64,000 nucleotides of DNA from Roseiflexus sp. RS-1 (GTDB lineage Bacteria > Chloroflexota > Chloroflexia > Chloroflexales > Roseiflexaceae), in contig NC_009523.1 in the NCBI RefSeq assembly GCF_000016665.1, forward strand, positions 3,162,001 to 3,226,000. The letters are read 5' to 3'. The notes beneath the pieces are model-generated. The model was not told where the DNA came from and ran no database searches. It saw nothing but the letters and a program-made list of their open reading frames with translations. The stretch's first letter is position 1; each line of letters starts with the position of its first letter. This document shows positions 39,369 through 59,903 of this stretch, piece after piece. Made by a program: the position numbers and the translations under genes.

Positions 39369-39461
39369 TGCGGTATTCAAGCGAATGGGCAGAGATGCAC
39401 TCGTTGATTATTCTGAGTGTCCACGACTTCATTGCAATCTCGTCAGCCTGATGAGGACTGC

Positions 39462-42400: not shown

Positions 42401-44606
42401 CGAGCAGTCCCTCGCCATCAAGGAAAGCCTGGGCGATGTGCGCGGCAAGAGCGCCACGCTCCACGCGATGGCCGGCGTGCTGGTGACGCGCGGCGACCTC
42501 GACGGGGCGATGCGCCTCTACGAGCAGTCCCTCGCCATCCAGGAAAGCCTGGGCGATGTGCGCGGCAAGAGCGCCACGCTCCACGCGATGGCCGGCGTGC
42601 TGGTGACGCGCGGCGACCTCGACGGGGCGATGCGCCTCTACGAGCAGTCCCTCGCCTCTGATGAAAGCCTGGGCGATGTGCGCGGCACGAGCGCCACGCT
42701 CCATAATATGGCACACGTGCTGGAGACGCGCGGCGACCTCGACGGGGCGATGCGCCTCTACGAGCAGTCCCTCGCCATCCAGGAAAGCCTGGGCGATGTG
42801 CGCGGCAAGAGCGCCACGCTCCACGCGATGGCCGGCGTGCTGGAGACGCGCGGCGACCTCGACGGGGCGATGCGCCTCTACGAGCAGTCCCTCGCCATCA
42901 AGGAAAGCCTGGGCGATGTGCGCGGCACGAGCGCCACGCTCCACCAAATGGCCGGCGTGCTGGTGACGCGCGGCGACCTCGACGGGGCGATGCGCCTCTA
43001 CGAGCAGTCCCTCGCCATCCAGGAAAGCCTGGGCGATGTGCGCGGCAAGAGCGCCACGCTCCACCAAATGGCCGGCGTGCTGGTGACGCGCGGCGACCTC
43101 GACGGGGCGATGCGCCTCTACGAGCAGTCCCTCGCCATCCAGGAAAGCCTGGGCGATGTGCGCGGCAAGAGCGCCACGCTGGTGATGATGGCACAGATAC
43201 AGTTTGCACGGGGTGATCACGAAACGGCGCTGCGCAATGCGCGCGAGAGCCTGCGCCTGCTTCAGGCGATGGGCGCGGCGCCTGATGCGGCAAAGGTGGC
43301 TGAGATTGTTCAGCAAATGGAAGCGGCGCTGGCCGGTGGCGCGTCGCCCCAACCTGCGGCGTTCACCCCTGCCCGGCTGGTCGGTGCGCTCATCGGGGCA
43401 GTGGTGCGTGTTCAGCGTGGCCAGATGCCGGCTGCGGATCTGCGGGCCGATCTTGAGCGGCTGTCAGCTGAAGCAACGTTGACGCCAATCACCACCGCGC
43501 TGCTGGCGGCGCTTGATGGCGCTGCCGATGCCGCGGCGACGCTGCTGGTCGCTGCTGAGCCGCTGCTGGCTCAGGGCGCCGCCGCTGAACGCGCCGATGC
43601 GCTGGCGGGCATCGGCAACCTGGCGGCGCTGCTCGATGACCACGCAACGGAATTGCGCGCGCGTGAAGCGGCCGTGGCGGCCTTCCGCGCGGCGGGTGAC
43701 GACCGGCAATCCCTGGTGAACCTGAGCATTGCGCTGTACAATCTGGCGATGCTGTATGCCCGTCAGGGCAACCATGCCGCAGCCGTGCCCTTGCTCGAAG
43801 AGGTCGTTGCCCTTGACGAGCGCACCGGTCACCCTGATCTGGCGAGCGACCGGGCGAAACTGGAAGAGATGCGCCGGCACGCTGCCGGTCTGCCGGAGGT
43901 ATCGCTGGTTGATGTTATCGCCGAATGGCGCGATGGGGACCGCGATCACGAGCAATTTGTGAACCTGCTCAACCTGGTCTGCAACCTGTATGTCCAGACG
44001 ATGAGCGATGGCAGCAGCGATCAGCGTGAGCGGCTGGCGGAGGATCTGGCGCACCTGCGGGCGATCCGTCCCCTGCCCGTCGCCGGGGCGAACGACTTCC
44101 TGGCGGTGCTTCAGCTCCGTCTGCGCGATGAACCGGGGATGACAGAACGGGCGGCGCGGATCGCGGCGACACTCCCGGCGCAACTGGCGCAGGCGCTGGC
44201 TATGATGGATCAGGCGATCAGCGGTGAACCTGTCGCGCCGCCAGCGGATAGCGATGAGCAGGAGGCTGCGGCAGCGATGGCGGCGATGTTGAGCGGCCTG
44301 CCGCCGGAGCAGCGCGCCGAACTCCAGATACTGGCACAGGTGGTGCCGCTGGTGCTGCATGGCATCGGTCTGCTCCGGCAACCTGATCTCACCGCCGCCG
44401 AACGCGGGCGGTTCGCGGAGGTTCTTGAACAGGCGGCGAGCCAGGCTGAAACCGGCGAAACGGCCGGTTCACCCTGGCTGGCGGCGGCGGGTGTCCTGCG
44501 CCAGGTCGCGGGCTGGTTGAAGGGCGCCCCTGCCGCGCCTGATACCCTGCCTGAGCCGTACCGGAGCCTGGTGATGCGGATGCTGGAGGGCGCTGGCGAT
44601 GAGTAA
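39462..44606 (+). CDS. CHAT protease - NB-ARC ATPase - TPR protein
   Basis: A 1714-residue protein. Residues about 1-340 form a CHAT (caspase-like) peptidase domain: ELASIPWEYLHDG, catalytic His212 in FHYTGHGDVENG and catalytic Cys255 in LAFLNACRTADS. An NB-ARC/STAND ATPase follows, with FVGRNKELLDLARLF, Walker A GAGGMGKT at 403-410, LLLIWDNYETVLW (Walker B) and LIFTSRQSP (sensor). Residues 847-1246 are exactly ten 40-residue TPR-like units, nearly identical in DNA, followed by more degenerate helical repeats to the end. The architecture suggests a ligand-gated protease: TPR sensing, ATP-driven oligomerisation, CHAT cleavage. It overlaps the zinc-ribbon gene by 8 bp and likely forms an operon with it and a membrane protein. 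An upstream GTG at 39417 is less likely. Confidence 0.92.
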   Translation: MPITISFQRTAIDRVEAQIDAQLAASFEPAALMVDQPLFSQRPAPADPRAYGQRLFAALGGDTFRAALARLPRAPHMDSLIAIQTADAELASIPWEYLHDGADFLILNYLLVREVPDAPLPAPPAPDLPWRLVVMGSDPLVQEVRDPKTGLFTGYAPMQRLKVVQELDLLRDDLLRQNPPAPIRWQRIAPTRQALIDDLDPREPILFHYTGHGDVENGAPVLCFDDGTGCMDPRPVNDLAADLRGLVYLAFLNACRTADSREPGANLALALVQHGIPAVLGTQYQVLDEAAAHVARTFYRLLASGQHPAQALYRARLQLKNQFRSEPREWAIPVLYLAQNYAWQVQRPVLNEPLRPLEPPVPHTTQLRAPDQSAGRFVGRNKELLDLARLFINEQRRIVTIRGAGGMGKTALVNALAERLRFHFRDGIVAVSLFLPGENAPLRAAQVRRDLATLLGLQHPAFDLPDAVKEQELALVEAARARPRLLLIWDNYETVLWRLGREASDPSSAPFDEAQRTEAAAVQRLVRLLADKGVHLIFTSRQSPVGLAGETFYPPAERGHQLGGLDPNDSVRLLRMRVGQRLPSTTFLEQLAAAVGYNPLAMNLAAARWANSQDDEPTFIANLRDELSKARDPAAPMYQQSSVEINVRLSLNALPADLRADLLALTIIANPVIIPRHGAVIWGLEDETQWFDDQAHTRLEQLHQASLLQGQGYDEQRNRAHAYSLHPLIASVLSRLAQELDLSDARARYAAWSDHLVSRAYDPEHGIDADPAVAAQTQFLLADIAAAVPYLPPEQRGWAAWRAASVFERLGQPEQAYQSITLAEATARETENQELLSRVYHQRATLLETRGDLDGAMRLYEQSLAIQESLGDVRGTSATLHAMAGVLVTRGDLDGAMRLYEQSLAIKESLGDVRGKSATLHQMAGVLVTRGDLDGAMRLYEQSLAIQESLGDVRGKSATLHQMAGVLVTRGDLDGAMRLYEQSLAIKESLGDVRGKSATLHAMAGVLVTRGDLDGAMRLYEQSLAIQESLGDVRGKSATLHAMAGVLVTRGDLDGAMRLYEQSLASDESLGDVRGTSATLHNMAHVLETRGDLDGAMRLYEQSLAIQESLGDVRGKSATLHAMAGVLETRGDLDGAMRLYEQSLAIKESLGDVRGTSATLHQMAGVLVTRGDLDGAMRLYEQSLAIQESLGDVRGKSATLHQMAGVLVTRGDLDGAMRLYEQSLAIQESLGDVRGKSATLVMMAQIQFARGDHETALRNARESLRLLQAMGAAPDAAKVAEIVQQMEAALAGGASPQPAAFTPARLVGALIGAVVRVQRGQMPAADLRADLERLSAEATLTPITTALLAALDGAADAAATLLVAAEPLLAQGAAAERADALAGIGNLAALLDDHATELRAREAAVAAFRAAGDDRQSLVNLSIALYNLAMLYARQGNHAAAVPLLEEVVALDERTGHPDLASDRAKLEEMRRHAAGLPEVSLVDVIAEWRDGDRDHEQFVNLLNLVCNLYVQTMSDGSSDQRERLAEDLAHLRAIRPLPVAGANDFLAVLQLRLRDEPGMTERAARIAATLPAQLAQALAMMDQAISGEPVAPPADSDEQEAAAAMAAMLSGLPPEQRAELQILAQVVPLVLHGIGLLRQPDLTAAERGRFAEVLEQAASQAETGETAGSPWLAAAGVLRQVAGWLKGAPAAPDTLPEPYRSLVMRMLEGAGDE
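42000..43199 (+). repeat. Ten tandem 120-bp units encoding TPR repeats
   Basis: The 120-bp period is exact and the frame is kept. All ten units share GGCGACCTCGACGGGGCG and the following bases almost without change. Differences are limited to a few codons: Leu-Val or Leu-Glu at the start, AIQE / AIKE / ASDE in the middle, GTS / GKS, and HAM / HQM / HNM near the end. They recur in different combinations between units. The low synonymous divergence indicates recent duplication or ongoing gene conversion. Confidence 0.97.
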
Positions 44607-44798: not shown

Positions 44799-45227
44799 AT
44801 GCGCATCCTTGGACCCGAAACCGCCGATGAACGGGAGCTGCGCGAGTGGTTCGAGAGCCAGGAGCGCGGCAATATTGAGCGCCTGGAGGCAGGCGCGCAG
44901 ACGATTATTCAGCTGGTGACCGGGCTGTATGGCGTGCTCTTTGCGGTGCTGGCGCTGAGTGACCAGCCGGCGTATCTGCAAAACCCGATTGTGCAATGGG
45001 CGGGTACGGTCGGCGTGTGCGCATTTTTTGGCTCGCTCCTGGCAGCCATGCTGGTGGCGATACCCCGTCGTGTTGTCTATCAGAAGGACAATCTGACCGA
45101 GATGCAGCGGATGTATGGTCGTCTTCAGCGGCGAAAGGCGACCCTGCTGCGAACTGCACAGATTGTGTTTCTGATCGGAACGGCGTGTCTGGTCACTGTG
45201 ATCCTGGCTATCCTCTGGAAGGTCTGA
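44799..45227 (+). CDS. Small multi-pass membrane protein of the CHAT operon
   Basis: A 142-residue protein. The N-terminal 30 residues are acidic (ETADERELREWFESQERGN). Three hydrophobic segments follow: about 36-55 (IIQLVTGLYGVLFAVLALS), about 67-88 (WAGTVGVCAFFGSLLAAMLVA) and about 118-141 (AQIVFLIGTACLVTVILAILW). A basic, Arg/Lys-rich segment lies between the second and third. It could be the membrane-acting effector or target of the CHAT/STAND protein, as in other proposed conflict systems; this is inference from context. Confidence 0.75.
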   Translation: MRILGPETADERELREWFESQERGNIERLEAGAQTIIQLVTGLYGVLFAVLALSDQPAYLQNPIVQWAGTVGVCAFFGSLLAAMLVAIPRRVVYQKDNLTEMQRMYGRLQRRKATLLRTAQIVFLIGTACLVTVILAILWKV

Positions 45228-45232
45228 CTCAA

Positions 45233-45412
45233 ATAGGCGATAGGTGATAGCCAATAGGCGATAGGTGATAGCCGATAGGCGATAACTGATAGCCGATAGG
45301 CGATAACTGATAGCCGATAGGCGATAGGTGATAGCCGATAGGTGATAGCCGATAGGCGATAGCTGATAGCCGATAGGTGATAGCCGATAGGCGATAGCTG
45401 ATAGCCGATAGG
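45233..45412. repeat. GATAGCCGATAGGCGATA simple repeat array
   Basis: About 180 bp of 8-10 bp units (GATAGGC, GATAGGT, GATAGCC, GATAACT) in mixed order, directly after the CHAT operon. It is the complement of the unit at 11811-11871. The units are too short and the array has no spacers, so it is not CRISPR. Confidence 0.85.
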
Positions 45413-45888
45413 AGCGCTGGACGTCGGCCAGGCAAGGCGAAGCCCGCCTGCGCGGGCGCGACGTTGCACGTGCGGGCTGAAGCCCTCCCTGAGCGCGTGG
45501 AAGCCCCTGCGGGGCTCTGGCGTTCTCACCGCTGAGAGCGATGGGCGGCATAATCAACCACGTGCGTCCTGGGTGCGCGGGCGTCCCCGCCCGCATGCAG
45601 AGACTGCGGGCTGATGGAGAGTGAGCAATAAATCCGCTATCCCGCGCCAGCCGTGGGGCCCAAGCCCTCGGCTATGCAAGGCGAAGCCCGCCTGCGCGGG
45701 CTATGCCAGACATAATTTCAAACTCAAACATCCGCGCCCATCCGTTGCATCCGTGCCGATCCGTGTTCTATTCCGCCATCCACACTCCCTTGCGGCGCAC
45801 AATCGGACCGGCTACGACAATACAGCGGTTGCAGCGTAACCCACAGCGATACACAACGCGCAGGTTCTCACTCCTCACTCCTCACCTC
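45413..45888. repeat. Gene-free region with two copies of repeat family B
   Basis: AGGCAAGGCGAAGCCCGCC at about 45430 and GCAAGGCGAAGCCCGCCTGC at about 45675 belong to family B, which also includes GCCGTGGGGCC and AAGCCCTCGGC. A CTCACTCCTCACTCCTCACC simple repeat (45868-45898) adjoins the 3' end of the permease gene. No gene seen. Confidence 0.65.
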
Positions 45889-48505: not shown

Positions 48506-50119
48506 CTATTGTTCATACACAACCGTCCCGCCAGCGACGGTCATCACAACCGGAACACGAGCACTACGCTCCGGTTCGACATCCAGCAGGCTCTCGCTGA
48601 GAACGGCAATATCGGCGTACCTGCCGGGCGCCAGCGCCCCCTGATCGCGTTCGGCGAACGCGGCATAGGCGCTGCCCCACGTATAACTACGGATCGCATC
48701 CATCAAACCGATTGCCTGATGTGGGGCAATACGGCGACCATTGTGCGCCATGCGCGTCACCGCCGCCGCGATTCCCTGCAACGGCGCAAAATCCGGCAAC
48801 ACCGGGTTATCCGAACCGTTCGCCAGCACAACGCCAGCGCGCTGCAATGCGCCCCAGGCGTGTCCCCAGGGCGCCAGTTCCGGTCCCAACCGGGTCACGT
48901 CCCCCTCTTCCCAAAAGGTAAAACAGGACTGTATAGCAGCGACGACTCGCAGACGCGCGAAACGTTCCGGCAGACCGGGATGGATGACCTCGACATGTTC
49001 GATGCGGTGGCGATGATCGGAACGAGGAAGCACGGTCAGTGCGCGCTCATATGCGTCGAGCGCCATGGTCACGGCTGCGTCGCCAATGGCGTGGATCGCC
49101 ACCTGAAACCCGGCGCGGTGCGCGCGGAGCACTCGCGCATCGAGTTCCTCCGCCGCCAGCAGCGGAAAACCGCGATTGCCCGGCTCATCGCCATACTCTT
49201 CGGTCAGCCACGCCGTGCCGCCGCCAAGCGTTCCGTCTGCAAAATACTTGATCGCGCCAAAGCGCAACCACCCGTCGTCACGCCACACCTCGCGCCATGC
49301 GCCTGCTTCGGCAGCCTCCAGCATCTGCGCTGCGACATCGCCATACGCCATTACATACATCCGCAGACCGATCCCGCCGCCACGGATCGCATCAGCGACG
49401 ATCTCCAGATCGCGCACCCCGTTGACATGCCCCAACGCCGCCTCGCCGACAGCGACGATACCGCGCCGGTGATACTCGCGCGCTGCATCGCGCAACCCGC
49501 TCTGCCAGTCGATAGCGGGCGCTTCGACTGCACCGGCTACCAGCGACATCGCCGCTTCGAGCAGAACGCCGGTCAGGTTGCCATGGTCATCGCGCTCGAT
49601 GCGCCCTCCCGGCGGATCGGGAGTCGCTGGCGTCACCCCGGCGCGCGCCAGCGCCATCGAATTCGCCAGCGCCATGTGGTTGCAGGCGCGATAGACCAGC
49701 AACGGATGCGCGGGAACGGCAGCATCGAGTTCCGCCAGCGTCGGATGGCGACGTTCCGCCAGCCGCCCCTGGTCGTGCCCGACGGCGACAATCCACGATC
49801 CGGCGGGGCGACGTTCCGCAGCCGCGCGCAGGCGCTCCAGCAGCGCCGGAATGCTGGTCGTATCCCACAGCGGCACGCGAGTGCGGCTGCGCACATAACT
49901 CAGCAAATGCTGGTGCGAATCGTGGAACGCCGGGAGGACGGCATACTCCGGCGGAAGACGAACCACCCGCGTGGAGGCTCCCGCCAGCGCCTCGACAGCC
50001 TCAGATCGCCCGACTGCAAGAATACGGTCGTCGCCAATCGCAACCGCGCCGTCACGGATCGGCTCAGCGATGATCGGATAGACCGTCGCACCGGTAAGGA
50101 TGAGACGGGGTGTCTTCAT
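48506..50119 (-). CDS. Amidohydrolase family protein (YtcJ/exoenzyme-regulatory type)
   Basis: A 537-residue metal-dependent hydrolase of the amidohydrolase_3 group: FHDSHQHLLSYV (HxH metal ligands), VGHDQGRLAERRHPTL, FADGTLGGGTAWLTEEY, HAIGDAAVTMALDAYE, RIEHVEVIHP and VLANGSDNPV with the late Asp. The C-terminal GALAPGRYADIAVLSE strand-loop is usual. The substrate is unknown. Its start overlaps the stop of the RAMP gene as ATGA (50116-50119), so it seems translationally coupled to the CRISPR operon. Confidence 0.9.
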   Translation of the reverse strand: MKTPRLILTGATVYPIIAEPIRDGAVAIGDDRILAVGRSEAVEALAGASTRVVRLPPEYAVLPAFHDSHQHLLSYVRSRTRVPLWDTTSIPALLERLRAAAERRPAGSWIVAVGHDQGRLAERRHPTLAELDAAVPAHPLLVYRACNHMALANSMALARAGVTPATPDPPGGRIERDDHGNLTGVLLEAAMSLVAGAVEAPAIDWQSGLRDAAREYHRRGIVAVGEAALGHVNGVRDLEIVADAIRGGGIGLRMYVMAYGDVAAQMLEAAEAGAWREVWRDDGWLRFGAIKYFADGTLGGGTAWLTEEYGDEPGNRGFPLLAAEELDARVLRAHRAGFQVAIHAIGDAAVTMALDAYERALTVLPRSDHRHRIEHVEVIHPGLPERFARLRVVAAIQSCFTFWEEGDVTRLGPELAPWGHAWGALQRAGVVLANGSDNPVLPDFAPLQGIAAAVTRMAHNGRRIAPHQAIGLMDAIRSYTWGSAYAAFAERDQGALAPGRYADIAVLSESLLDVEPERSARVPVVMTVAGGTVVYEQ

Positions 50120-50949
50120 GGTTGCTTCTGCCACAGACCAAACGATTCGACCGCGAAACAATGTTCATTCGTTGCTATGCCGCCCGGCGCATAGACGACC
50201 CCAAAATGGGTTATGGAGGCGCCTGCGCCGCTGTTGGTATGCCACTCGCGCCCTACCAGCGGCTCGACCTCGCCTGCGATCATTATCTGATCCGGCTTCG
50301 TGTGGGCGAGCAGGCGTTTGTCTTGCGGAACGGTTATAACAGGGCGACGACCGCTACAATCAACGGTGCAACTGAAGGCATCGTCTGTCTTCTCAAGACT
50401 CACCAATTCTGTCTTACCCCAGCCGTAGCCGCGTTCGCCGCCGAATTGCAGACGTGTCAGTGCGTCGTGCCAGGGAAGCGAACAATCTTTGTGCGCAAAC
50501 ACATACCCGATCAGGTAAACTGGATCGGCGGTATCGAGCGTGTGGGGCGAGAGAAACTCTATCTCGTGCAGTGACCCTTCGGCGGCTGAATGCTCCGGAT
50601 AAACCAGCGCAGTAGATTGATAACTGCTCAGGAAACGTCGGCGAAAGGTGCGTTCATCATCCCACGGCCAGACCACCTGATAGTCATTGCCCGATTGTAG
50701 CGCCGGGTAAAAGTAGGTGAACGCCAGGTATTCGTTCACTTGATGACCGCTCTCGTGATAATCGTTCGAGGTGGTTGCCTTCTGTCCCTTTTGCGCCGCT
50801 GTATCACGCGCCAGGCGTTCGGTCAGCGCCCCCCAGAAGGAGCGACCGGTGAGGTAGGGGCGAGTGACCTGCACATTGCCAACCTTGCGCCAGCCGATGT
50901 GCAACGGTGAGTGCAAACGAAAAACAACGCGATACCCGATCCAGTTCAT
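50116..50949 (-). CDS. RAMP-superfamily CRISPR type III subunit, unassigned (possible Cmr3/Cas5-like or Csx10-like)
   Basis: A 277-residue protein. It opens VVFRLHSPLHIGWRKVGNVQV and RPYLTGRSFWGALTERLARD, the N-terminal strand and helix of RAMP proteins, and has the glycine-rich GGERGYGWGKTEL loop near residue 175. It fits the position of the remaining RAMP subunit needed beside Cmr1-, Cmr4- and Cmr6-like genes, where a Cmr3-like Cas5 would cap the crRNA. I cannot settle the exact subunit by eye. The start overlaps the Cmr5-like stop. Confidence 0.72.
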   Translation of the reverse strand: MNWIGYRVVFRLHSPLHIGWRKVGNVQVTRPYLTGRSFWGALTERLARDTAAQKGQKATTSNDYHESGHQVNEYLAFTYFYPALQSGNDYQVVWPWDDERTFRRRFLSSYQSTALVYPEHSAAEGSLHEIEFLSPHTLDTADPVYLIGYVFAHKDCSLPWHDALTRLQFGGERGYGWGKTELVSLEKTDDAFSCTVDCSGRRPVITVPQDKRLLAHTKPDQIMIAGEVEPLVGREWHTNSGAGASITHFGVVYAPGGIATNEHCFAVESFGLWQKQP

Positions 50950-51362
50950 GATGATTCTCCTGGCGCCTCGCTTCCCCCCTTGTCACGCGCTTTTGCACCA
51001 TAGCGTGCATAGATCAGCATCTGTTCCAGCACCTCACGCGCCAGCAACAGGCGATCCAGGTCTTTCGTCACCTGTTCACTGATGAAGGGTAGTATCTCGC
51101 TATTATTCGTTGGCTTCTGCCAACCGAACGGTAGACTACTTAACAGATTGAGCATTTCATCAACGACAACAGCACCGTTCTCCTTCTCTCTGGCGAGCAA
51201 GTAGAGAAAGCAGGCATAGACCCCGTCTTCCTGAAGCACACCTAGCGCTTTAGTGATCGTGTTTTCGATGTCAGAAGCCTTCTTGTCCTTCGTCTTCTGG
51301 ATGATGGTCTGTGCATATTTTGCAGCCAGGTAGTCAAGATTGATCGAAGTCGTGTTGGTCAT
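50946..51362 (-). CDS. cmr5: Cmr5-like small subunit of a type III CRISPR complex
   Basis: A 138-residue all-helical protein: LDYLAAKYAQTIIQKTKDKK, KALGVLQEDGVYACFLYLLARE and RLLLAREVLEQMLIYARYGAKARDKGGSE. The length and the N-terminal Ala/Lys-helix plus C-terminal ALEALLYLKRFA-like helix match Cmr5/Csm2-type small subunits, which line the belly of the complex along target RNA. Placement between the Cmr4-like and last RAMP genes supports it. Confidence 0.78.
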   Translation of the reverse strand: MTNTTSINLDYLAAKYAQTIIQKTKDKKASDIENTITKALGVLQEDGVYACFLYLLAREKENGAVVVDEMLNLLSSLPFGWQKPTNNSEILPFISEQVTKDLDRLLLAREVLEQMLIYARYGAKARDKGGSEAPGESS

Positions 51363-51376
51363 GGTTGCTCCTCGCT

Positions 51377-52369
51377 TTACGGCGTTGTCGCTCCTTCACC
51401 GGATGGTGACTGCGCAGCATTGGACTGCTGACCATAATCCTCTTCCTGAGGCTGACCGACAATGGCGATCCGTCCGAAGCCGCGTGTGCCCATACCGCCA
51501 ACGCCCAGCCACTCGATCAGACGCAGACCGGCATCGAGCACATCGAGCGGCGATTGCCAGACGGCATTGCTGGGTAGAGAGTTTTTATTTTGCGAAACTG
51601 ATTCGAATTTCGCTCGATAGTCATCCAGCACCACTTCAGCGGTTAGAAACGTGGCGCGGGGGATGGCTTCATAAGTGAAGAGCGCCTTATCCTCGGCAGC
51701 GCCGGTTTCGGGGTTGATACTCACCGAGGTGCGCACTTCGAGGTTGCTGTTGACGATGTGGCTGAAGATGGACTCATGTACCAATGCGATCTTGTTCTCA
51801 ATCGCGTTCCAGCGATCGGTCTGCCAGTTAGTCGGCGCATTCACGGTGACCTGCCCGCCCCTGTTGAGCATCAACCATCCCAGGTTGAGCGGATCTCGGC
51901 GCGCAAATGTTAACAGTGCCACCTCCTTTGCCCACCCATCGGGCACGTTGCTCATTTCAAAACCTGCCTCACGCAACCGCTCGACCGTGCCGACCCACAC
52001 CGGTCCAACCAGCGAATGCACCGGGAAGAGCACGATGTGCGCGTCGAAGACGTTGACCACGCCAGAGTAGGCTTTGACGTCTTGTCCGTTATTGCTTTTC
52101 TTGATGTAGCCAAAGGTATAACACACTGGATTCTGCTCAGGATTGGTCACCGTGTCGTGCGTTTGACCAGCAGCTTCGGGCGTTTCATACAGTTGGGCAG
52201 CGTAAGAGCGAGCCGCGCCGTGGAGACTGGTACCGGGGATTTTCGGCACCCGTGTGCCCGGCTCGCGCACGATGCTGTTGTCCACACGCCCCAGGCGGTA
52301 GCTGCCAGCGCCAATGTGCACCGGATCAAGGGTCATTAAGAGATAACGTCGTCGCTTGTAGATCGCCAT
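51377..52369 (-). CDS. cmr4: Cmr4-like backbone RAMP subunit (Cas7)
   Basis: A 330-residue protein. The N-terminus DPVHIGAGSYRLGRVDNSIV and PKIPGTSLHGAARSYAAQLYE follow the Cmr4 pattern of HxGxGS, an Asp on a loop, then PGSSLKGALR. Asp30 (GRVD) corresponds to the catalytic Asp that cleaves target RNA at 6-nt steps. The C-terminal GVGGMGTRGFGRI is the RAMP G-rich loop. With Cas10 apparently lacking cyclase residues, RNA cleavage by this subunit may be the main activity. It starts 6 bp after the large-subunit gene. Confidence 0.86.
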   Translation of the reverse strand: MAIYKRRRYLLMTLDPVHIGAGSYRLGRVDNSIVREPGTRVPKIPGTSLHGAARSYAAQLYETPEAAGQTHDTVTNPEQNPVCYTFGYIKKSNNGQDVKAYSGVVNVFDAHIVLFPVHSLVGPVWVGTVERLREAGFEMSNVPDGWAKEVALLTFARRDPLNLGWLMLNRGGQVTVNAPTNWQTDRWNAIENKIALVHESIFSHIVNSNLEVRTSVSINPETGAAEDKALFTYEAIPRATFLTAEVVLDDYRAKFESVSQNKNSLPSNAVWQSPLDVLDAGLRLIEWLGVGGMGTRGFGRIAIVGQPQEEDYGQQSNAAQSPSGEGATTP

Positions 52370-52375
52370 AACCGT

Positions 52376-55207
52376 TCATTCCTCCTTCAGAATCTCCATC
52401 CGCAGTTCGAGCAGATCGGCCAGCTCCCCTTTTGTTCCAGCAGCGACAAGCTGGGCACGGATGTTCTGCGACAGCGCCTTCCAATCCCATTCAGCGCCAG
52501 CCAGCGTGTCATGCACAAATTGCCTGAACACCTGATCGGTGACCGACGTGCCACCATGATCCTGCCCAAACCATTCCTCACGAGTCGCCTCGATCATGCG
52601 CACCACCTGATGGCGCTGAGTGGTGCTCAGGCGTAGGAACACCTCCCAGAGCCTATCGAACCGCTCCAGGTCGTCGAGGTAAAACGGTCGGGTGTGTCGG
52701 TTTGCTCGTCGTCCATTAGTGTCGTAGTGAATCTCGAAGCGGCGAGTGGTTGTATCAAGGAACTCAAAATCGAACGTTGCTGGCGCGAACCATACCTGAT
52801 CGCCGACCTGCAACTCAGCGGCGTGAACCAGCCAGCCATCGCAACCCTTCCACGGATTGCGACTCTTGAAATACCGTTTGCGCGTCGTCGGTTCTACCTG
52901 ATCGTCCAGAAAGACGTAAGGGTACCAGAGGTCTTCGGTCTGACTGTCACCCATTAAAGCCGGAATATGCCAGGTCAGGCGCTGGTCGTCCTTCTGCAGG
53001 GTTACTTCGTACCACTCAGCGAATTGACCCGCCTGATCAGGCTGGAAGCGCGCGGGCAGCGAGTCGCCTTTGCTTACCATTTTCTGTGCACAGCACAATA
53101 CCTCCCACACGCTGGCCACTGTCTGGCGCTCCAGCATCGCCCGCCCGGCGTCAAGCACAGCGCGCAGTGGGGTGGGGCGTGGCGCAAACACCACGCCCAG
53201 GTGCAGCGGCAGGCGATTACGCACCTTGCCCATCTCGCGTTCGTACTTTGTTTTGATCTGTCTGATCACCTCCAACGCCCTATCCGCCGGTACAAGCGCC
53301 ATGAAGACCCGTGGTTCGGCGAGGAGGGGCAGGGCAGGAACAAAGGAGCCGTTGGCAATCGGCACTGCATCCTGGCTGAGCGTGATGTTTCCCAATTGAC
53401 GACGCTTGCCGGTATCATCAGATGCTTCGATCAGAAAGGTCTTACCTTGTTTCAGGATATCCTGAATCTTTCCCGATCGCATAAGACCGTTCAGGTATGT
53501 CAGATTGTCGCAGGTGACAAAACCGTTCCCATCCCACAACACGCTGAGCCTGATACCTTCAGGTAGCACCAGTTCATACGTATGATAGGGCACCAATGTC
53601 TGAACGTTCAGGCTACACTTAATCTCCAACCGTGGTTCGGCGCGCCCCACCACGCGACCAATCACCGCGTCTGACAACATGCCCGGCTCTGTCGATCCGA
53701 CCTGTTGCCAGAATGCGTACGTCGTTTCCCAGATTCGGCGCAGACGGGCGAAGGAGGGATTTTTGGAAACCTTGTCAGTGGTACGATTCTTGTTATCTGG
53801 TTGACGAACAACCAGGGTGCGCACCAGATCACCCGCGAGCCAGCCGCTTAGATCGAACGCACCGACGATGAGCGCATAGCGACCATGGATATCAGTCAGG
53901 TCATCAATCCAGATAGTCGGATGATCACCACAACGCAGCGTGCCTACCCACTGCTGCGCTCGATCAGTACGTCGCTGTTCGCATGTATCACAGACCTTGC
54001 GCTCCTGCGCTTTGGGATCGGGTCCTTGCGGACGCAGACCGCAGACAGTGCATACTTCGGCATTCTGACCACGCCAGAGTGTTTCGAGCCATTGAGGGTC
54101 AGTAGTTTCGCGTATGTCCCGTTTGAGATGGTTCACAATCGGTGGCAACTCCTGTGGAGCCGGCTGACCCTTCCACGGCTTGTCATCCAGATAGAGTTCA
54201 GGCACACGTTCGTGCCGTATGGCGAGAGATGAATCATTCTTTACTGTTCCGGCAGCAAATGCATCTCGAATAAGATCTCTCAGGGTCTTTCTCTCTCCAC
54301 CATCTTGAGCAACTTGGGATTCATCCAGCAGGTTCTCAATGTCTGGCACGACGAAGACCGGTCCATTCTCGTCGCGATACACCTCCAACCCTAGCGGGTA
54401 GGTTTCTTCAATCAGCGTTTGCACTCGGTTCCACGCATCGCTTAGCAACTCGCGACGCGCCAGCAAGTCGGGAATACGTGAGACTGAAAGTAGGTATTGC
54501 AGTCCGTCAACACGAATACTCAGTAAACGCCAGGCAACATCTGAAGGACTGCGTTGTTGGGTGGTAAGCACACATCGAGCCAGTTCAGCCTTGTAGAGCG
54601 CAGCAACAATCGAAGACCAGTCCCACAGTGTGACTTCATTGATCGGGCGGCGAGTGTCGCCCCATGCCTCTGCGAAGACACTTTGGAGTGAGACGAGAAT
54701 TTTTTTCCGTGCGATGGCACTGAAGTTTTTCAAAAGCGTTTTTGGCTCTCCTAGAAGCCGCTTCAGTAAGTTGTCAGGCTGGATAGGTTCCCACCCAAAC
54801 GGGGAAGCAATCCAATCTGTAGCTTGATCTTTTGACTCATGATCACCAAGTTCTTTCTCAACATGACTAACATCATGTGATTGTCCCAAGACTCGGATGA
54901 GATGGTTTGACGAGCTTCTCGCCTGGGATGGTTGTCGTCCTAGCTCGGCGATTTCTTTGATATTATTCCCCGAAACACAGAGATTCGGAACGAGTTTTTC
55001 CAGAACATCCGCAAAATCCCCTGGCTTTAGTGTTGTACCTCTTTGCTGCCAATTGCGAATTTTTACTTTGTTTACATTTGGATTGTTGTTCCAATCGGAG
55101 GCGACCTTCATATCGATACATTTCTGCCAGTCATGCACCCATGCTGCTACCTCTGCCAGTAGCAGATTATCCTGTGCTGTAACCAATTTGTTCAAATCGT
55201 AGCTCAT
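52376..55207 (-). CDS. Csx11/Cas10-like large subunit, HD present, GGDD not seen (type III-C-like)
   Basis: A 943-residue protein. It starts with the Cas10 HD dyad: AEVAAWVHDWQK (His25, Asp26), the ssDNA nuclease site. A zinc finger follows, CTVC (386-389) and CDTC (406-409). The two palm regions are recognisable (GRYALIVGAFDLSGWLAG; ALVPADRALEVIRQIKTKYE; RLPLHLGVVFAPRPTPLRAVLDAGRAML). Where the cyclase GGDD should precede ALVPAD, around residues 625-635, the sequence reads LLAEPRVFMALVP, so oligoadenylate synthesis is not expected. A cyclase-dead large subunit with Cmr-type RAMPs is the description of subtype III-C (MTH326/Csx11-like). The ATG at 55207 was preferred over 55234. Confidence 0.88.
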   Translation of the reverse strand: MSYDLNKLVTAQDNLLLAEVAAWVHDWQKCIDMKVASDWNNNPNVNKVKIRNWQQRGTTLKPGDFADVLEKLVPNLCVSGNNIKEIAELGRQPSQARSSSNHLIRVLGQSHDVSHVEKELGDHESKDQATDWIASPFGWEPIQPDNLLKRLLGEPKTLLKNFSAIARKKILVSLQSVFAEAWGDTRRPINEVTLWDWSSIVAALYKAELARCVLTTQQRSPSDVAWRLLSIRVDGLQYLLSVSRIPDLLARRELLSDAWNRVQTLIEETYPLGLEVYRDENGPVFVVPDIENLLDESQVAQDGGERKTLRDLIRDAFAAGTVKNDSSLAIRHERVPELYLDDKPWKGQPAPQELPPIVNHLKRDIRETTDPQWLETLWRGQNAEVCTVCGLRPQGPDPKAQERKVCDTCEQRRTDRAQQWVGTLRCGDHPTIWIDDLTDIHGRYALIVGAFDLSGWLAGDLVRTLVVRQPDNKNRTTDKVSKNPSFARLRRIWETTYAFWQQVGSTEPGMLSDAVIGRVVGRAEPRLEIKCSLNVQTLVPYHTYELVLPEGIRLSVLWDGNGFVTCDNLTYLNGLMRSGKIQDILKQGKTFLIEASDDTGKRRQLGNITLSQDAVPIANGSFVPALPLLAEPRVFMALVPADRALEVIRQIKTKYEREMGKVRNRLPLHLGVVFAPRPTPLRAVLDAGRAMLERQTVASVWEVLCCAQKMVSKGDSLPARFQPDQAGQFAEWYEVTLQKDDQRLTWHIPALMGDSQTEDLWYPYVFLDDQVEPTTRKRYFKSRNPWKGCDGWLVHAAELQVGDQVWFAPATFDFEFLDTTTRRFEIHYDTNGRRANRHTRPFYLDDLERFDRLWEVFLRLSTTQRHQVVRMIEATREEWFGQDHGGTSVTDQVFRQFVHDTLAGAEWDWKALSQNIRAQLVAAGTKGELADLLELRMEILKEE

Positions 55208-55391
55208 GGGCCTGTTCCTCTGAATACCTGTCACAATTGCCGATAGGTATCGAACGTACCCATTCTGTAGGCGCAGCAGCGCTGCGCCCCTACCGTGATG
55301 TATTGTTGTACCCTGTGCGCAGCACCTCCGTGCAACGCGCCAGTTCGGCTTCGAGCCTGGCGTGCTGCAATCGGATCGGATAGCGGTGGCA
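55208..55391. other. 184-bp spacer in the CRISPR operon
   Basis: This is the only sizeable gap inside an otherwise tightly packed operon. It holds a GTAGGCGCAGCAGCGCTGCG imperfect palindrome (55269-55294), a relative of the one at 21173-21196, and on the minus strand a short open stretch (about 55310-55370) that looks like a decayed coding fragment. It may be a scar of gene loss or an internal promoter region. Confidence 0.4.
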
Positions 55392-56387
55392 TTAGGGCGT
55401 GGTCTTCAGCCAATGTTCTACCTCTACTGCCAGATCACTCAGCCGTTTTCCCTTCAGGGAAAGTGTCTTTGTCATGATACGTATCTCGCCATCCACCAGG
55501 TCATCTGCGGCTATGCCGAAGCCGCTGCTGGTCTTCGCCCCAAAGCCATAGGTGCTCAGCATCGCCTGAATGCCCTGCGCAACGACCACGAGGTCGTCGG
55601 CGCTCTGCTGCGCATCGACCGCCGTGCCGGTTGGCACATAGAGCAGCATCAACGCACCCTGTGCGCCAGCGGGTACGCATTCCAGCAAAATCGGACCACG
55701 TGCGCCAACCCCCTTTTCCCGGTCGTGCGGGTTGATCACCTCCAGACCGAGGCGGTCGAAGAAGGTGGGGAAGAACTGCACAAACCCGGCGCAAAATGCC
55801 TCTTCGTCACCCCTGATATTGCCGAACAGCCGCACCATCTGCGAGTCGTTCGCTTCCTGTTCCGGGGTGGTATACCCGCGCATCTGGCGCAGCGCGGCAC
55901 GCAGGGCGCCTTTCCATCCCGACGGCGCAACGTAGGGAACATCAAAGACCCACTCCTTCTTCACCGGATTTTCCAGCAGGTGAAAGAGACGGTCGTCTCT
56001 GCTCAGATACGGCTTGCTCAGGGTGAAGGTGAGACGCAATGCCCATGCGCCAGACGGGAGGGTTGCCAGGTCGGGCAGCGTCGGTTCCAGACCGAGTTGC
56101 TGCATCGTAGCGCGTTGGCGGGCAAGGAATGCTGCCGCGTCCTGCTCAACCCACAGGCGGTAACCGCCAGCTTGCGTGCGAGTGCCACTGCGCGCGCGTT
56201 CGAGTTGAGGTGTGATCATTGCCTGCGCCAGCACTGCCAGCCGTGCGGTCGGGTCACGCAGCAAGCGCAGATCACCCCAACGTTTCGGCAGTTCCGGTGT
56301 CTCGCCAGCAAGCCATTGCAGGGCAAATGCCTGCACGGTGCCATCTTGAAGAGCATAAGGAAAGTAAGCATGGAATTCGTAACTCAT
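55392..56387 (-). CDS. Cmr6-like RAMP subunit (Cas7)
   Basis: A 331-residue protein. It has VPYVAPSGWKGALRAALRQMRG (RAMP helix with the PGSSLKG-like motif, residues about 150-172) and the C-terminal GFGAKTSSGFGIA loop characteristic of Cmr6-type proteins (GxGAKTxxGYG). The N-terminal part (ALQDGTVQAFALQWLAG onward) is longer and less typical. Cmr6 sits near the 3' end of the crRNA in the complex. The start shares one base with the stop of the TOPRIM gene (TAATG). Confidence 0.78.
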   Translation of the reverse strand: MSYEFHAYFPYALQDGTVQAFALQWLAGETPELPKRWGDLRLLRDPTARLAVLAQAMITPQLERARSGTRTQAGGYRLWVEQDAAAFLARQRATMQQLGLEPTLPDLATLPSGAWALRLTFTLSKPYLSRDDRLFHLLENPVKKEWVFDVPYVAPSGWKGALRAALRQMRGYTTPEQEANDSQMVRLFGNIRGDEEAFCAGFVQFFPTFFDRLGLEVINPHDREKGVGARGPILLECVPAGAQGALMLLYVPTGTAVDAQQSADDLVVVAQGIQAMLSTYGFGAKTSSGFGIAADDLVDGEIRIMTKTLSLKGKRLSDLAVEVEHWLKTTP

Positions 56388-57094
56388 TAAAGCGCCCTGA
56401 TTGCTGCAATAATCGACGCAAAGTTCTGTTGCACAAGATTATTATTCGCGCTTGCCAGCACATTTGCAGCGAACACTGGCGGTGAGGTATGCATCCGAAG
56501 CACGGCTGCGTACAGGCGCACATAATCTTTGGCTTCTGACAGAGGTGGAAAGCCGTTCCGTTGCAGCAGTGCCGGTATTTCTTGCGTCACTTTTTGAATA
56601 ATAACCTGTCCTCTTACATTCAAACTCTGCCTTTGCGCAAGATTAGCGGCTACATTTTGATTAAGTGCCAATCGCAACACCAGATCGTCGATAGTACATT
56701 TCGTAAGCCCGGAAAGCGAGCGGCGAGATGCAATGTGAATGACTAAACGGAAGTCTATACTCGGCGCATCCCAGACAAAGGCATTCCAAACACCGGTAAC
56801 ACGCTGGAATTGTAACGATGTGTTAATACCACGTTGCTTCAGGATTCCTTTCAATCCATTGTCGACACTCTGAATAATTCGCGCAATGGTCTCTCCTGAA
56901 TCCTTATCGCGCAGAATGAGCGCCCGAACCGGCTGTTGTCCTACAAGTGGGCCGAGTTTAGTGACGATTTCACTGTTAATTTTGTCCTTTCCCTTGCAAT
57001 CGAAGGTCTGAAAGGCAAAACCAGGAAAAAATTGCTTTAACCTTTCAATCACCTTCTCTTCAGTTTTACCTTCAGCAAAGACTAGGATCTTCAT
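56387..57094 (-). CDS. TOPRIM-domain protein paired with the AAA ATPase
   Basis: A 235-residue protein. The first strand KILVFAEGKTEEKVIERL gives the TOPRIM glutamate (Glu8), and RALILRDKDSGETIARI gives the D-x-D motif (Asp63, Asp65). This is the metal site of OLD-family and topoisomerase-primase nucleases. The C-terminal half is helical. It resembles stand-alone TOPRIM families (DUF3226, DUF4276, DUF4435); I cannot choose among them. The start lies 23 bp inside the ATPase gene, so the two are translated together, like a split OLD or AriA-AriB pair. Located inside the CRISPR operon. Confidence 0.78.
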   Translation of the reverse strand: MKILVFAEGKTEEKVIERLKQFFPGFAFQTFDCKGKDKINSEIVTKLGPLVGQQPVRALILRDKDSGETIARIIQSVDNGLKGILKQRGINTSLQFQRVTGVWNAFVWDAPSIDFRLVIHIASRRSLSGLTKCTIDDLVLRLALNQNVAANLAQRQSLNVRGQVIIQKVTQEIPALLQRNGFPPLSEAKDYVRLYAAVLRMHTSPPVFAANVLASANNNLVQQNFASIIAAIRAL

Positions 57095-58361
57095 GAACTT
57101 CCTCTCGCAGTTGAAACTGAAGCGGCGCATCAATGTCTTCAAGAACACGCGGATCGAGGCCCGATTCAAGCCAGGAAGCCAGATTTTCGCGATTGAACCA
57201 CGATGATCTGAGCACCCCATCACGCAGGTTCAGGCGAAACGCCAGCGTCTGTTCGGGCGATAAGACGTTGTGCTGGAGCATACGGGTAACATGGGCGATG
57301 ACTTCCAGGCTTTGGGTAGACATGAAAACCTGCACCGGCTTCCCTGCCACCAGCCGGGCAACTTCATCGAGCAATCGGCCCAGGGTGGCGGGGTGCATAA
57401 ATAACTCCGGGTCTTCCCACAAGAACAATCCCGGCTCTTGCTGTTCGGCACGATCAACCAGTGCAATCAGGGCAGCCAGCACCTTGAACGCATGACGGGC
57501 GCCATCGCCGAACTGATCGATCTCAAGCGGCAGGGTGCGGTCAGGAAGTTCCAGGTAACCGCCCCAGGTCGTGCCGGTCGGGGTTGGTTTCACATTCACC
57601 CGCATCCCCGCCATATCCGGGAATACTCGCGCCATGCTCTGCGCAATGCGCTCTTCCCACTTGCTCACCGTGCGATAGCAGCGTTGCGCAAAGGCGCCTT
57701 CAAAGTGGGCATGAGCAGTGTGAAAATCAAAGAAGAGCACATGCTCCGCCCTCCCATCGCCAGCCTCCGCCCATATCGCCAGTCGATCCAGGGGATGGGT
57801 ATCGTTCCAGCGGTACACCCAGCGTTGATCCCAGACATAGTGCCAGCGCTGATAGGGAAGATCTGGGCGATGGGTGGCGAGGAGCGGCGGGATAAACTCT
57901 GGCGGTGCATGATCTGGTTGCACGAGCGAAAACAGAATGGTGCGTTGTACGTCAGTCTTGCGCAACCAGTCCGGCGCTTCGGCAGCCAGACGAAATCGAT
58001 GCAACGGGTATGTTGCCGGAAGATCGGGCAGCTCCAGGATGAGATTCTGTTCTTTGTCCAGATCGATCAAGAAGGAATCCGTCTCACGCAATGCATATCC
58101 ATGGCGCCAACGGAGCCGTTCGGTTGGCGCATACGATAGAAAATCTCGTGTGACAAGCATTGTCGCCGCATGAACGGGAGGATCAATGGTTTTGGTGATG
58201 AGCTGGCAGGTTCGTCTGCTCAGGCTGCCCAGGTAGAGCAATTCCAGCAGCGCAGACTTGCCGCTATTGTTCGGACCGATCAAGACGTTGAATACCCGTA
58301 AGTTTTTGATTACGCCCTCGCGAATACCACGAAAGCGATGGATGGTCAGAGATCGAATCAT
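57072..58361 (-). CDS. AAA ATPase (OLD/AriA-like, AAA_15/AAA_21 type)
   Basis: A 429-residue protein. SLTIHRFRGIREGVIKNLRVFNVLIGPNNSGKS holds Walker A (GPNNSGKS, 29-36). FLWEDPELFMHP holds Walker B (Trp-Glu-Asp-Pro-Glu, Asp317), with the D-loop-like HPATLGRLLDEVARLV following. The usual switch histidine of STHS is Gln here (FMSTQSLEVIAHV). This is an ABC/SMC-type ATPase as used by OLD nucleases and PARIS AriA. The start overlaps the stop of the Cmr1-like gene as ATGA (58358-58361). Its product is expected to work with the TOPRIM protein encoded next. Confidence 0.86.
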   Translation of the reverse strand: MIRSLTIHRFRGIREGVIKNLRVFNVLIGPNNSGKSALLELLYLGSLSRRTCQLITKTIDPPVHAATMLVTRDFLSYAPTERLRWRHGYALRETDSFLIDLDKEQNLILELPDLPATYPLHRFRLAAEAPDWLRKTDVQRTILFSLVQPDHAPPEFIPPLLATHRPDLPYQRWHYVWDQRWVYRWNDTHPLDRLAIWAEAGDGRAEHVLFFDFHTAHAHFEGAFAQRCYRTVSKWEERIAQSMARVFPDMAGMRVNVKPTPTGTTWGGYLELPDRTLPLEIDQFGDGARHAFKVLAALIALVDRAEQQEPGLFLWEDPELFMHPATLGRLLDEVARLVAGKPVQVFMSTQSLEVIAHVTRMLQHNVLSPEQTLAFRLNLRDGVLRSSWFNRENLASWLESGLDPRVLEDIDAPLQFQLREEVHEDPSLC

Positions 58362-59428
58362 TGCAGTGCTCCCTGTAGCAGTTGCTGCACATCCTGAATT
58401 GTTTGCGGTGTTTGTTGGATCAGTGTGCCCTGGACACTCAACGTCTGATTCCAGGTTGTTGCATTACCTAACGTCTGAGTCAGCGTACTTGCTGTTTGCA
58501 ATTGTGCAGGCAACCATGCCCACCCACGAACACACCACTGTTTGCTATCGATACGATATGCCCACGTTGCTGCGATCCGTCCCCGGCGGCGGTCGGGATG
58601 GCTGGCGCCAAAAATAATCCGCTCATCATTGAGCTTCCATTGCCGACCAGAGCGCCATGCGTTTTTCAATGCCGGTGTTACTGGTACGACGCTGTAGCGC
58701 TGTACCAATGGTTGCACCTGAATGCTGACGCGACTTATCCCTGGAATGTCTGTCCACCAGCCTGGCTGGACAGGCGTGAAATCGAACTGGAAGAACAGAA
58801 ATCGCCGTAAATCAGGATAATCAGGGTGAGGACGAAGACGTTGTGGCGCTCGAGTCGTATTCCAATTCACCTTCCTCGCCTCTACAAGCACATCGATGAG
58901 ATTGGCTACGCGAAATGCGCCATACCCCAATTGTGCTCTGGCACCCAGGTTGCCCCAGCGTTCCAGAAACAGGAGCAGTGCCGCGATACGTTGCACTGCC
59001 TCAGGGTCGCCGGTCAGTCGCAAGGTGAAGGCGCCCATTCGACTCTGCGGTAAAAACCACCCCCGTGTGCGACCCGGTGAACGAGCACTCAACCGATCAC
59101 CCGCCGAGATCGGTCGAGTCTGATCATCAACCACCGTCAAACGAAACCGTCGCCGCCAGCCGGTCGCGCCAAAGACCTGGCACGCATCGCACAGTCCAGC
59201 ATCGCGCAGGCGTTGCGAAGGAGTGCTGGCTAAGGATTGCTTATACTTCTCAGCGTCGAAGGTGCACTTGCTCTGACTCGGATCGCATGCCTCACCGCCC
59301 AACCCACGCACAATCGCTTCATACCACCAGCGCAGGCTGCCGAGCAGACCGCTTTCGTGCAGCCGGTCGGTCGTCCCATCCACGCCACCGGTCCAGAGAG
59401 GGGTCAGGGTTGTGATCTGCACATCCAT
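58358..59428 (-). CDS. cmr1: Cmr1-like RAMP subunit
   Basis: A 356-residue protein. ITTLTPLWTGGVDGTTDRLHESGLLGSLRWWYEAIVRGLGG is a close match to the Cmr1 N-terminus (TP...GG..., R-x-S-x-LRGxLRWW). Other features are CDACQVFGATGWRRRFRLTV, with cysteines at about 82-100 as in Cmr1, and NLGARAQLGYGAFRV as the G-rich loop (residues about 180-195). Cmr1 caps the 3' side of the crRNA. It is the first gene of the cas operon. An in-frame ATG at 59440 is an alternative start. The gene upstream is repeat-rich non-coding DNA. Confidence 0.88.
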   Translation of the reverse strand: MDVQITTLTPLWTGGVDGTTDRLHESGLLGSLRWWYEAIVRGLGGEACDPSQSKCTFDAEKYKQSLASTPSQRLRDAGLCDACQVFGATGWRRRFRLTVVDDQTRPISAGDRLSARSPGRTRGWFLPQSRMGAFTLRLTGDPEAVQRIAALLLFLERWGNLGARAQLGYGAFRVANLIDVLVEARKVNWNTTRAPQRLRPHPDYPDLRRFLFFQFDFTPVQPGWWTDIPGISRVSIQVQPLVQRYSVVPVTPALKNAWRSGRQWKLNDERIIFGASHPDRRRGRIAATWAYRIDSKQWCVRGWAWLPAQLQTASTLTQTLGNATTWNQTLSVQGTLIQQTPQTIQDVQQLLQGALQ

Positions 59429-59615
59429 AGCGCTCTCCAACGCTGCTGCAGAATGCCAGGCGCCAGCTGTGGTCGCCGTGATGAGGTGGTAAGACTCGAA
59501 TCTGATCTGCCGTACCCAGAGACCATTGCCCGCCCATCGAGTTTACCGGACGAAACATCCCGCTGTGAACGCGAAGGGCTTCCATACCGATTTGATAAGA
59601 AGGCGCTAAAGCCAG

Positions 59616-59621: not shown

Positions 59622-59654
59622 GCAAATATCCGCCTGGGGCGCGGGCACCCTTGC

Positions 59655-59903
59655 AGGGGTAGGCTTTTGGGGAAGCCCCTGCGTGCCATCTTCCGTTTCA
59701 GGCATCAGGACGCCCAACCTCCCCCTTCTCCCCGTGTGGGAGAAGGGGGCAGGGGTATCTCACAGGGGTAGGTTTTTGGGGAAGCCCCTGCGTGCCATCT
59801 TCCGTTTCAGGCATCAGGACGCCCAACCTCCCCCTTCTCCCCGTGTGGGAGAAGGGGGCAGGGGGGATGAGGGGCAAAAGGCGCGGGAATGCAGCAAACC
59901 GCG
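59655..59903. repeat. Dispersed repeat family A, copies 3 and 4 in tandem (109-bp offset)
   Basis: AGGGGTAGGCTTTTGGGGAA at 59655 and AGGGGTAGGTTTTTGGGGAA at 59764 start two copies. Each continues with CGTGCCATCTTCCGTTTCAG, the GGGAGAAGGGGGCAGGGG hairpin arm, and (copy 4) the GGGGGGATGAGGGGC and GGGAATGCAGCA tail. Copy 3 is cut short at 59757. The rest of the 59429-60135 spacer holds no recognised gene. Confidence 0.8.

Follow-up and report, generated by a model that had tools for sequence, protein, structure and literature searches.

An ATPase/TOPRIM gene pair embedded in type III-C CRISPR operons as a candidate OLD-like effector

Nucleases of the OLD family comprise OLD itself (class 1), GajA (class 2), retron Eco8 (class 3) and PARIS (class 4), in which AriA senses Ocr. 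The HEC-01 and mad3/mad4 pairs are embedded in larger defense systems, and some TOPRIM proteins, RNase M5 among them, process RNA. Type III CRISPR systems usually alarm the cell through a nucleotide that the Cas10 cyclase produces, and in type III-E systems with TPR-CHAT (Craspase), the complex switches on its partner effector by direct protein contact. A 2024 survey described type III-C without cyclase active sites and without known effectors (PMC11229360). A recognizable HD nuclease is present in only half of the III-C loci.

We analyzed a 64,000-nt window (contig NC_009523.1, positions 3,162,001 to 3,226,000) of the closed genome of Roseiflexus sp. RS-1 (5,801,598 bases). A complete operon occupies window positions 59440-50116 on the minus strand in the order cmr1–ATPase–TOPRIM–cmr6–cas10c/csx11–cmr4–cmr5–cmr3 (Table 1), and the combination of a Csx11-type Cas10 with Cmr1, 3, 4, 5 and 6 (TIGR02682, PADLOC) assigns it to type III-C. 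A preliminary description of this DNA had given the coordinates of the ATPase/TOPRIM pair correctly and had proposed that it is stop-start coupled between cmr1 and cmr6. The junctions bear this out: the cmr1 stop overlaps the ATPase start by 4 nt (ATGA), the ATPase and TOPRIM genes overlap by 23 nt, and TOPRIM meets cmr6 with a 1-nt overlap (TAATG).

Table 1. Genes of the type III-C operon, with coordinates in the window.
Feature	Position	Strand	Evidence and remarks
cmr1 (RAMP, Cas7-type)	58358..59440	-	PADLOC Cmr1 2.3e-19, TIGR01894 5.3e-15; upstream neighbor of the ATPase
OLD/AAA_21-type ABC ATPase, 429 aa	57072..58361	-	AAA_21 3.6e-17
TOPRIM nuclease (putative), 235 aa	56387..57094	-	ATG at 57094, within the ATPase gene; AF2 model
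cmr6	55392..56387	-	PADLOC Cmr6 1.1e-71; downstream neighbor of TOPRIM
cas10c/csx11	52376..55234	-	TIGR02682 2.7e-134, PADLOC Cas10c E 0
cmr4 (Cas7 backbone)	51377..52369	-	PADLOC 8.1e-42; putative RNA-cleaving Asp kept (RVDNS)
cmr5 (small subunit)	50946..51362	-	PADLOC 1.1e-47
cmr3 (Cas5-type)	50116..50949	-	PADLOC 3.2e-85

A simple repeat scan found no CRISPR array in the window, and the locus has neither an array nor a cas6 gene of its own. Together with the membership of RNase M5 in the TOPRIM family, this would fit a pair that handles crRNA or assembles the complex, perhaps as an RNase M5-like maturase with a remodeling ATPase, and that has no effector function. We regard such a role as very improbable: arrays are absent from most III-C loci (PMC12669027), cas6 is encoded at two places elsewhere in the genome (and cas1 at four), and III-C loci without the pair keep the same subunits. 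Other repeats do occur in the window. Two 102-nt direct repeats, 99% alike, lie upstream of the operon (59654-59864), and a tandem array of short GATAGGC/GATAGCC-like units (45212-45433) gives YRLSAI-type repeats when read through on the minus strand. A plus-strand gene for a 1729-aa CHAT-protease/NACHT-like/TPR protein (39417-44606) carries 120-nt-spaced repeats, many of them 91-96% alike.

The first protein of the pair has the elements of an ABC-type ATPase, as expected of an OLD-like enzyme in the broad sense: Walker A (GPNNSGKS, residues 29-36), signature (FGDGARH, 284-290), Walker B (WEDPE, 315-319) and an H-loop glutamine (Q350). Walker A and the glutamine in the switch position are as previously described; 16 relatives all retain Walker A, the GDG-x-R signature and E316, and have either Gln or His at position 350. 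The expected Walker B acid is also present, but the role had been assigned to Asp317, which varies between Asp and Glu, and the invariant acid is Glu316 (WE-D/E-PE). The single-chain AF2 model (pLDDT 86.9) resembles Rad50/SMC heads and PtuA defense ATPases, with Z about 15-17.

The second protein has a TOPRIM fold with the conserved Glu and DxD of a broadly defined OLD-like nuclease, position 65 being Asp or Glu. The Glu8 and Asp63-x-Asp65 originally read from its sequence are confirmed. E8, T11, E12, D63, H120 and D136, as well as the EGxTE neighborhood, are invariant in 16 relatives, and position 65 is Asp in 10/16 (type A) and Glu in 6/16 (type B). The single-chain AF2 model (pLDDT 94.4) matches PH0156 (2p62; VIA Z 13.8, 2.9 Å over 196 residues) and, in two OLD nucleases, the C-terminal TOPRIM domain (Z 9.8-10.8, with 6nk8 at VIA Z 10.8, 4.3 Å over 171 residues), so both residues and fold align with known TOPRIM proteins. 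Retrons Eco2 and Eco8 appear lower in the fold list, amid unrelated rows; AriB and GajA chains are not among the matches listed, an absence that proves nothing.

By sequence, the TOPRIM protein has no strong match in any library. Family members weakly match DUF3226, OLD-like_TOPRIM, HEC-01B (6/11 members, best 1.1e-7) and mad4 (2.9e-4; 9e-4 for the window protein). A PDB sequence search with the TOPRIM profile returned chance matches only, and in Foldseek no viral model matched below 1e-3. Neither protein of the pair contains a CARF or SAVED sensor domain (Pfam, E<=1), as would be expected of a cOA-activated type III ancillary effector. A specific kinship to PARIS is not supported, since AriB matches none of 11 TOPRIM members (PADLOC, Pfam, E<=0.1) and the best AriA match of the ATPase is to a model whose length and coordinates are those of the generic Pfam AAA_21 domain. 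Relative to the nearest homologues, dN/dS is 0.19 for the ATPase and 0.51 for TOPRIM, indicating that both genes are constrained, the nuclease less so.

Thirteen other readable III-C loci (14 with the window), from Chloroflexota, Cyanobacteria, Desulfobacteraceae, Rhodothermota and Lokiarchaeota, carry the pair between cmr1 and cmr6 in an unchanged order; in 23 others, cmr1 directly precedes cmr6 and the pair is absent. Because position and order are the same in those 13 loci, the pair is not a chance insertion, and this recurrence, the motifs and the TOPRIM fold support the initial proposal that a III-C locus recruited a split OLD-like ATPase/TOPRIM pair. Among the 13 are the loci of seven Chloroflexia genomes, three of whose contigs stop before all downstream cmr genes or inside cas10c. 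Scanning 84,980 species genomes with an ATPase alignment adds pair loci from Anaerolineales, Lokiarchaeota, Desulfobacteraceae, Spirulina, Microcoleus and Rhodothermus, and two contig-edge cases (Thermodesulfatator and Desulfotomaculum) in which cmr1 adjoins the ATPase. A scan of genome contigs with a single TOPRIM sequence gave no matches, whereas the ATPase alignment did find relatives. The Spirulina locus has two further genes between TOPRIM and cmr6. In one Lokiarchaeota locus (L069:7947-10046), ATPase and TOPRIM form one 699-aa frame, by natural fusion or assembly error; we did not use the single frame as evidence because the contig has about 2x coverage (per its name) and its cmr4 is also broken.

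In the genomes searched, the co-occurrence is near-exclusive to III-C. Across 400 Chloroflexota genomes, csx11 is present in 22 and TOPRIM in 8, all eight within that group of 22 and inside III-C operons (hypergeometric p 2e-11 by genome and 2e-5 by genus, both optimistic owing to shared ancestry). In the phylum of the Desulfobacteraceae relative, 1/297 genomes encodes TOPRIM, likewise in III-C. Two distant pairs do occur outside III-C, in Myxococcota (L074:6000-8437) and Blastocatellia (L072:2-1949, on a contig that starts inside the ATPase, its upstream side unseen), in genomes that show no csx11, and the module may therefore be able to function where there is no Cmr complex. These pairs favor a rival reading in which the two genes form an autonomous OLD-like defense system that acts independently of the crRNA complex and rides along in the operon to be co-expressed; OLD enzymes of classes 1 and 2 also act without CRISPR (PMC10568477). 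We nevertheless judge autonomy improbable. In about 700 genomes of Chloroflexota and the Desulfobacteraceae phylum there are no TOPRIM relatives outside III-C, plasmid collections hold no close relative of ATPase or TOPRIM and phage collections, searched with the ATPase, none of that protein, and the position is fixed across phyla. The Myxococcota pair shares its contig with a SIR2-domain gene, and the ATPases of both distant pairs group with those of cyanobacterial III-C loci.

How the pair came to be distributed is partly visible in the core genes. A tree of Cmr4, Cmr3 and Cas10c joins nine pair loci from five phyla in one clade (92/90), with pair locus L015 apart (L064, whose contig ends before the cmr1–cmr6 site, was left out of this careful tree). 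A single clade for all pair loci is rejected (p 0.008), and the distribution thus calls for no fewer than two changes (gains or losses). Two types can be distinguished among the TOPRIM proteins, and the ATPase tree conflicts with the TOPRIM tree because of cassette exchange, which can be seen directly in Roseiflexus-group loci. L010 and L013 mostly share 80-93% DNA identity over cmr1 and the ATPase gene up to its last third, and again from the start of cmr6, but only 39-59% over that C-terminal third and the entire TOPRIM. Correspondingly, their ATPases are 86% identical in the N-part and 35% in the C-part, and the C-part of L013 resembles type-B loci from other phyla more closely (51-55%). 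L010 and L011 differ by a smaller exchange, located in the first half of the TOPRIM gene. The C-third of the ATPase and the nuclease thus form a matched cassette that moves as one, the remainder of the operon staying in place, and this block exchange points to a modular effector.

Other parts of the operon also vary. The window Cas10c (52376-55234) shares only 54% identity with the Cas10c of the closest relative (L009:10316-13174), compared with 91-94% for cmr4, cmr5 and cmr6, which suggests that cas10c too was exchanged. The gap between cmr6 and cas10c is a second insertion hotspot: MNT-HEPN-like insertions (nucleotidyltransferase and/or HEPN genes) occur there in several III-C loci, some carrying the pair and some not (L011:5615-6550; L013:9496-9849; L071:12270-13060; L049:7334-8364), and the window has only a ~160-nt gap. 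Right after cmr3, the closest relative has four 72-nt near-identical tandem units (L009:15469-15757), which are not a CRISPR array because the would-be spacers are identical.

Rapid exchange of the nuclease cassette fits an arms race and, with it, the main rival to an effector role: a guard or back-up module whose ATPase senses a phage protein (e.g., an anti-CRISPR) or Cmr damage and releases TOPRIM when CRISPR is blocked. Embedding in the operon would tie such a guard to the guarded complex, and HEC-01 and mad3/mad4, the nearest TOPRIM matches, are also pairs of larger defense systems. OLD-ABC/TOPRIM back-up effectors are found in BREX and BREX-related loci, and PARIS answers anti-restriction proteins (PMC12839542, PMC12409363). 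Even so, a core role is favored by the strict cmr1–cmr6 position, by the overlapping starts and stops and by the fact that III-C has no other known effector, and we consider a guard function unlikely, if worth serious attention.

The remaining subunits bear on how a core effector might act. The window Cas10c keeps its HD motif (VHDWQKC), the cyclase GGDD is replaced by LVPAD, and no Cas10c that can be read at this position has GGDD, in agreement with the 2024 survey (PMC11229360). This loss is consistent with the "instead of oligoadenylates" part of the earlier suggestion, in which the pair would perhaps be gated by the crRNA complex. The HD motif is intact in 8/13 pair loci, the window included, and in 5/16 pair-less loci; the pair is therefore not simply an HD replacement, and we rejected it as a general substitute for a lost HD nuclease. 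In the five pair loci that have lost the motif (L012, L015, L069, L070, L073), TOPRIM is the sole evident nuclease besides the RAMP backbone. As Cmr4 keeps its putative catalytic Asp, cleavage of target RNA probably persists.

Cmr6 offers a lead for contact between pair and complex. An N-terminal region of ~110 aa carrying a GGYxxWVE motif is conserved in 12/14 pair loci and recognizable in 1/23 others, a distribution that common descent could explain and that was obtained with a profile built from pair loci. The region is a possible docking element. The cyanobacterial pair loci lack it, and the idea that it is exclusive to pair loci is weakened by a relative of its second half in the pair-less L191.

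So, is the pair the missing weapon of III-C? It is a good candidate, because it is a two-gene module like those of stand-alone anti-phage systems, is built into an operon that lost the usual alarm-signal enzyme and recurs in other phyla. Starting from the composition of the operon, the conserved position, the intact motifs, the near-exclusive co-occurrence with III-C and the matched cassette, we give an even chance to the reading that the pair is a two-subunit OLD-like nuclease and the built-in effector of a III-C subclade, gating by the crRNA complex included. The crRNA-loaded Cmr complex would bind a phage transcript and, perhaps through Cmr6 or Cmr1, contact the ATPase and change its nucleotide state. 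The ATPase C-terminal part, matched to the TOPRIM type, would then release or activate the nuclease, which would cut DNA or RNA and stop the infected cell. The contact, the direction of the signal and the substrate are parts that we infer. Contact with the crRNA complex, and not a nucleotide messenger, is the probable mode of activation; no diffusible messenger would be needed. Somewhat more tentatively, and just short of even, we propose a messenger-free form of type III CRISPR in which the III-C crRNA complex directly switches on a docked ATPase/TOPRIM nuclease, the cassette being exchanged while RNA recognition stays put.

With a conserved nuclease module in the operon, the question of how III-C stops phage becomes directly testable. 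If the model is true, CRISPR joins Gabija, retrons and PARIS as a setting of OLD/TOPRIM effectors, which suggests that sensors and OLD-like effectors are recombinable. OLD-family effectors and the III-C subtype are themselves known; the OLD-like pair built into III-C was not found described in the open-access papers searched, a scope beyond which supplements and closed-access surveys may already list it. Neither the 2024 type III survey nor the 2025 classification mentions TOPRIM in its main text.

Like other type III-C systems, the operon has the complete subunit set in the usual order and an inactive cyclase; it differs by the two extra genes between cmr1 and cmr6, without which many other III-C loci occur. 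The PADLOC candidates HEC-01A/B, MADS mad3/mad4 and PDC-M38 likewise combine an ATPase with a small TOPRIM gene, but similarity to HEC-01 and MADS is weak, and the operon shows no sign of Hma or MADS genes. PARIS also encodes its ATPase and TOPRIM as separate, adjacent genes, and its AriA forms a hexamer that holds AriB until a phage trigger releases it; unlike the pair, it is not embedded in CRISPR, and the trigger and tRNA target of AriB are not transferable. Craspase likewise joins a type III complex to a partner effector, with different effector chemistry and a different complex, and gating is shown there and inferred here. The parallel with the OLD family is an OLD/ABC-type ATPase coupled to TOPRIM, the TOPRIM model matching OLD C-terminal domains. 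Here, however, the two are separate genes in a Cmr operon, belong to their own sequence families and have no helicase or reverse transcriptase partner. Within that family, retron Eco8 (class 3) provides a precedent for an effector that works with a nucleic-acid-bearing complex.
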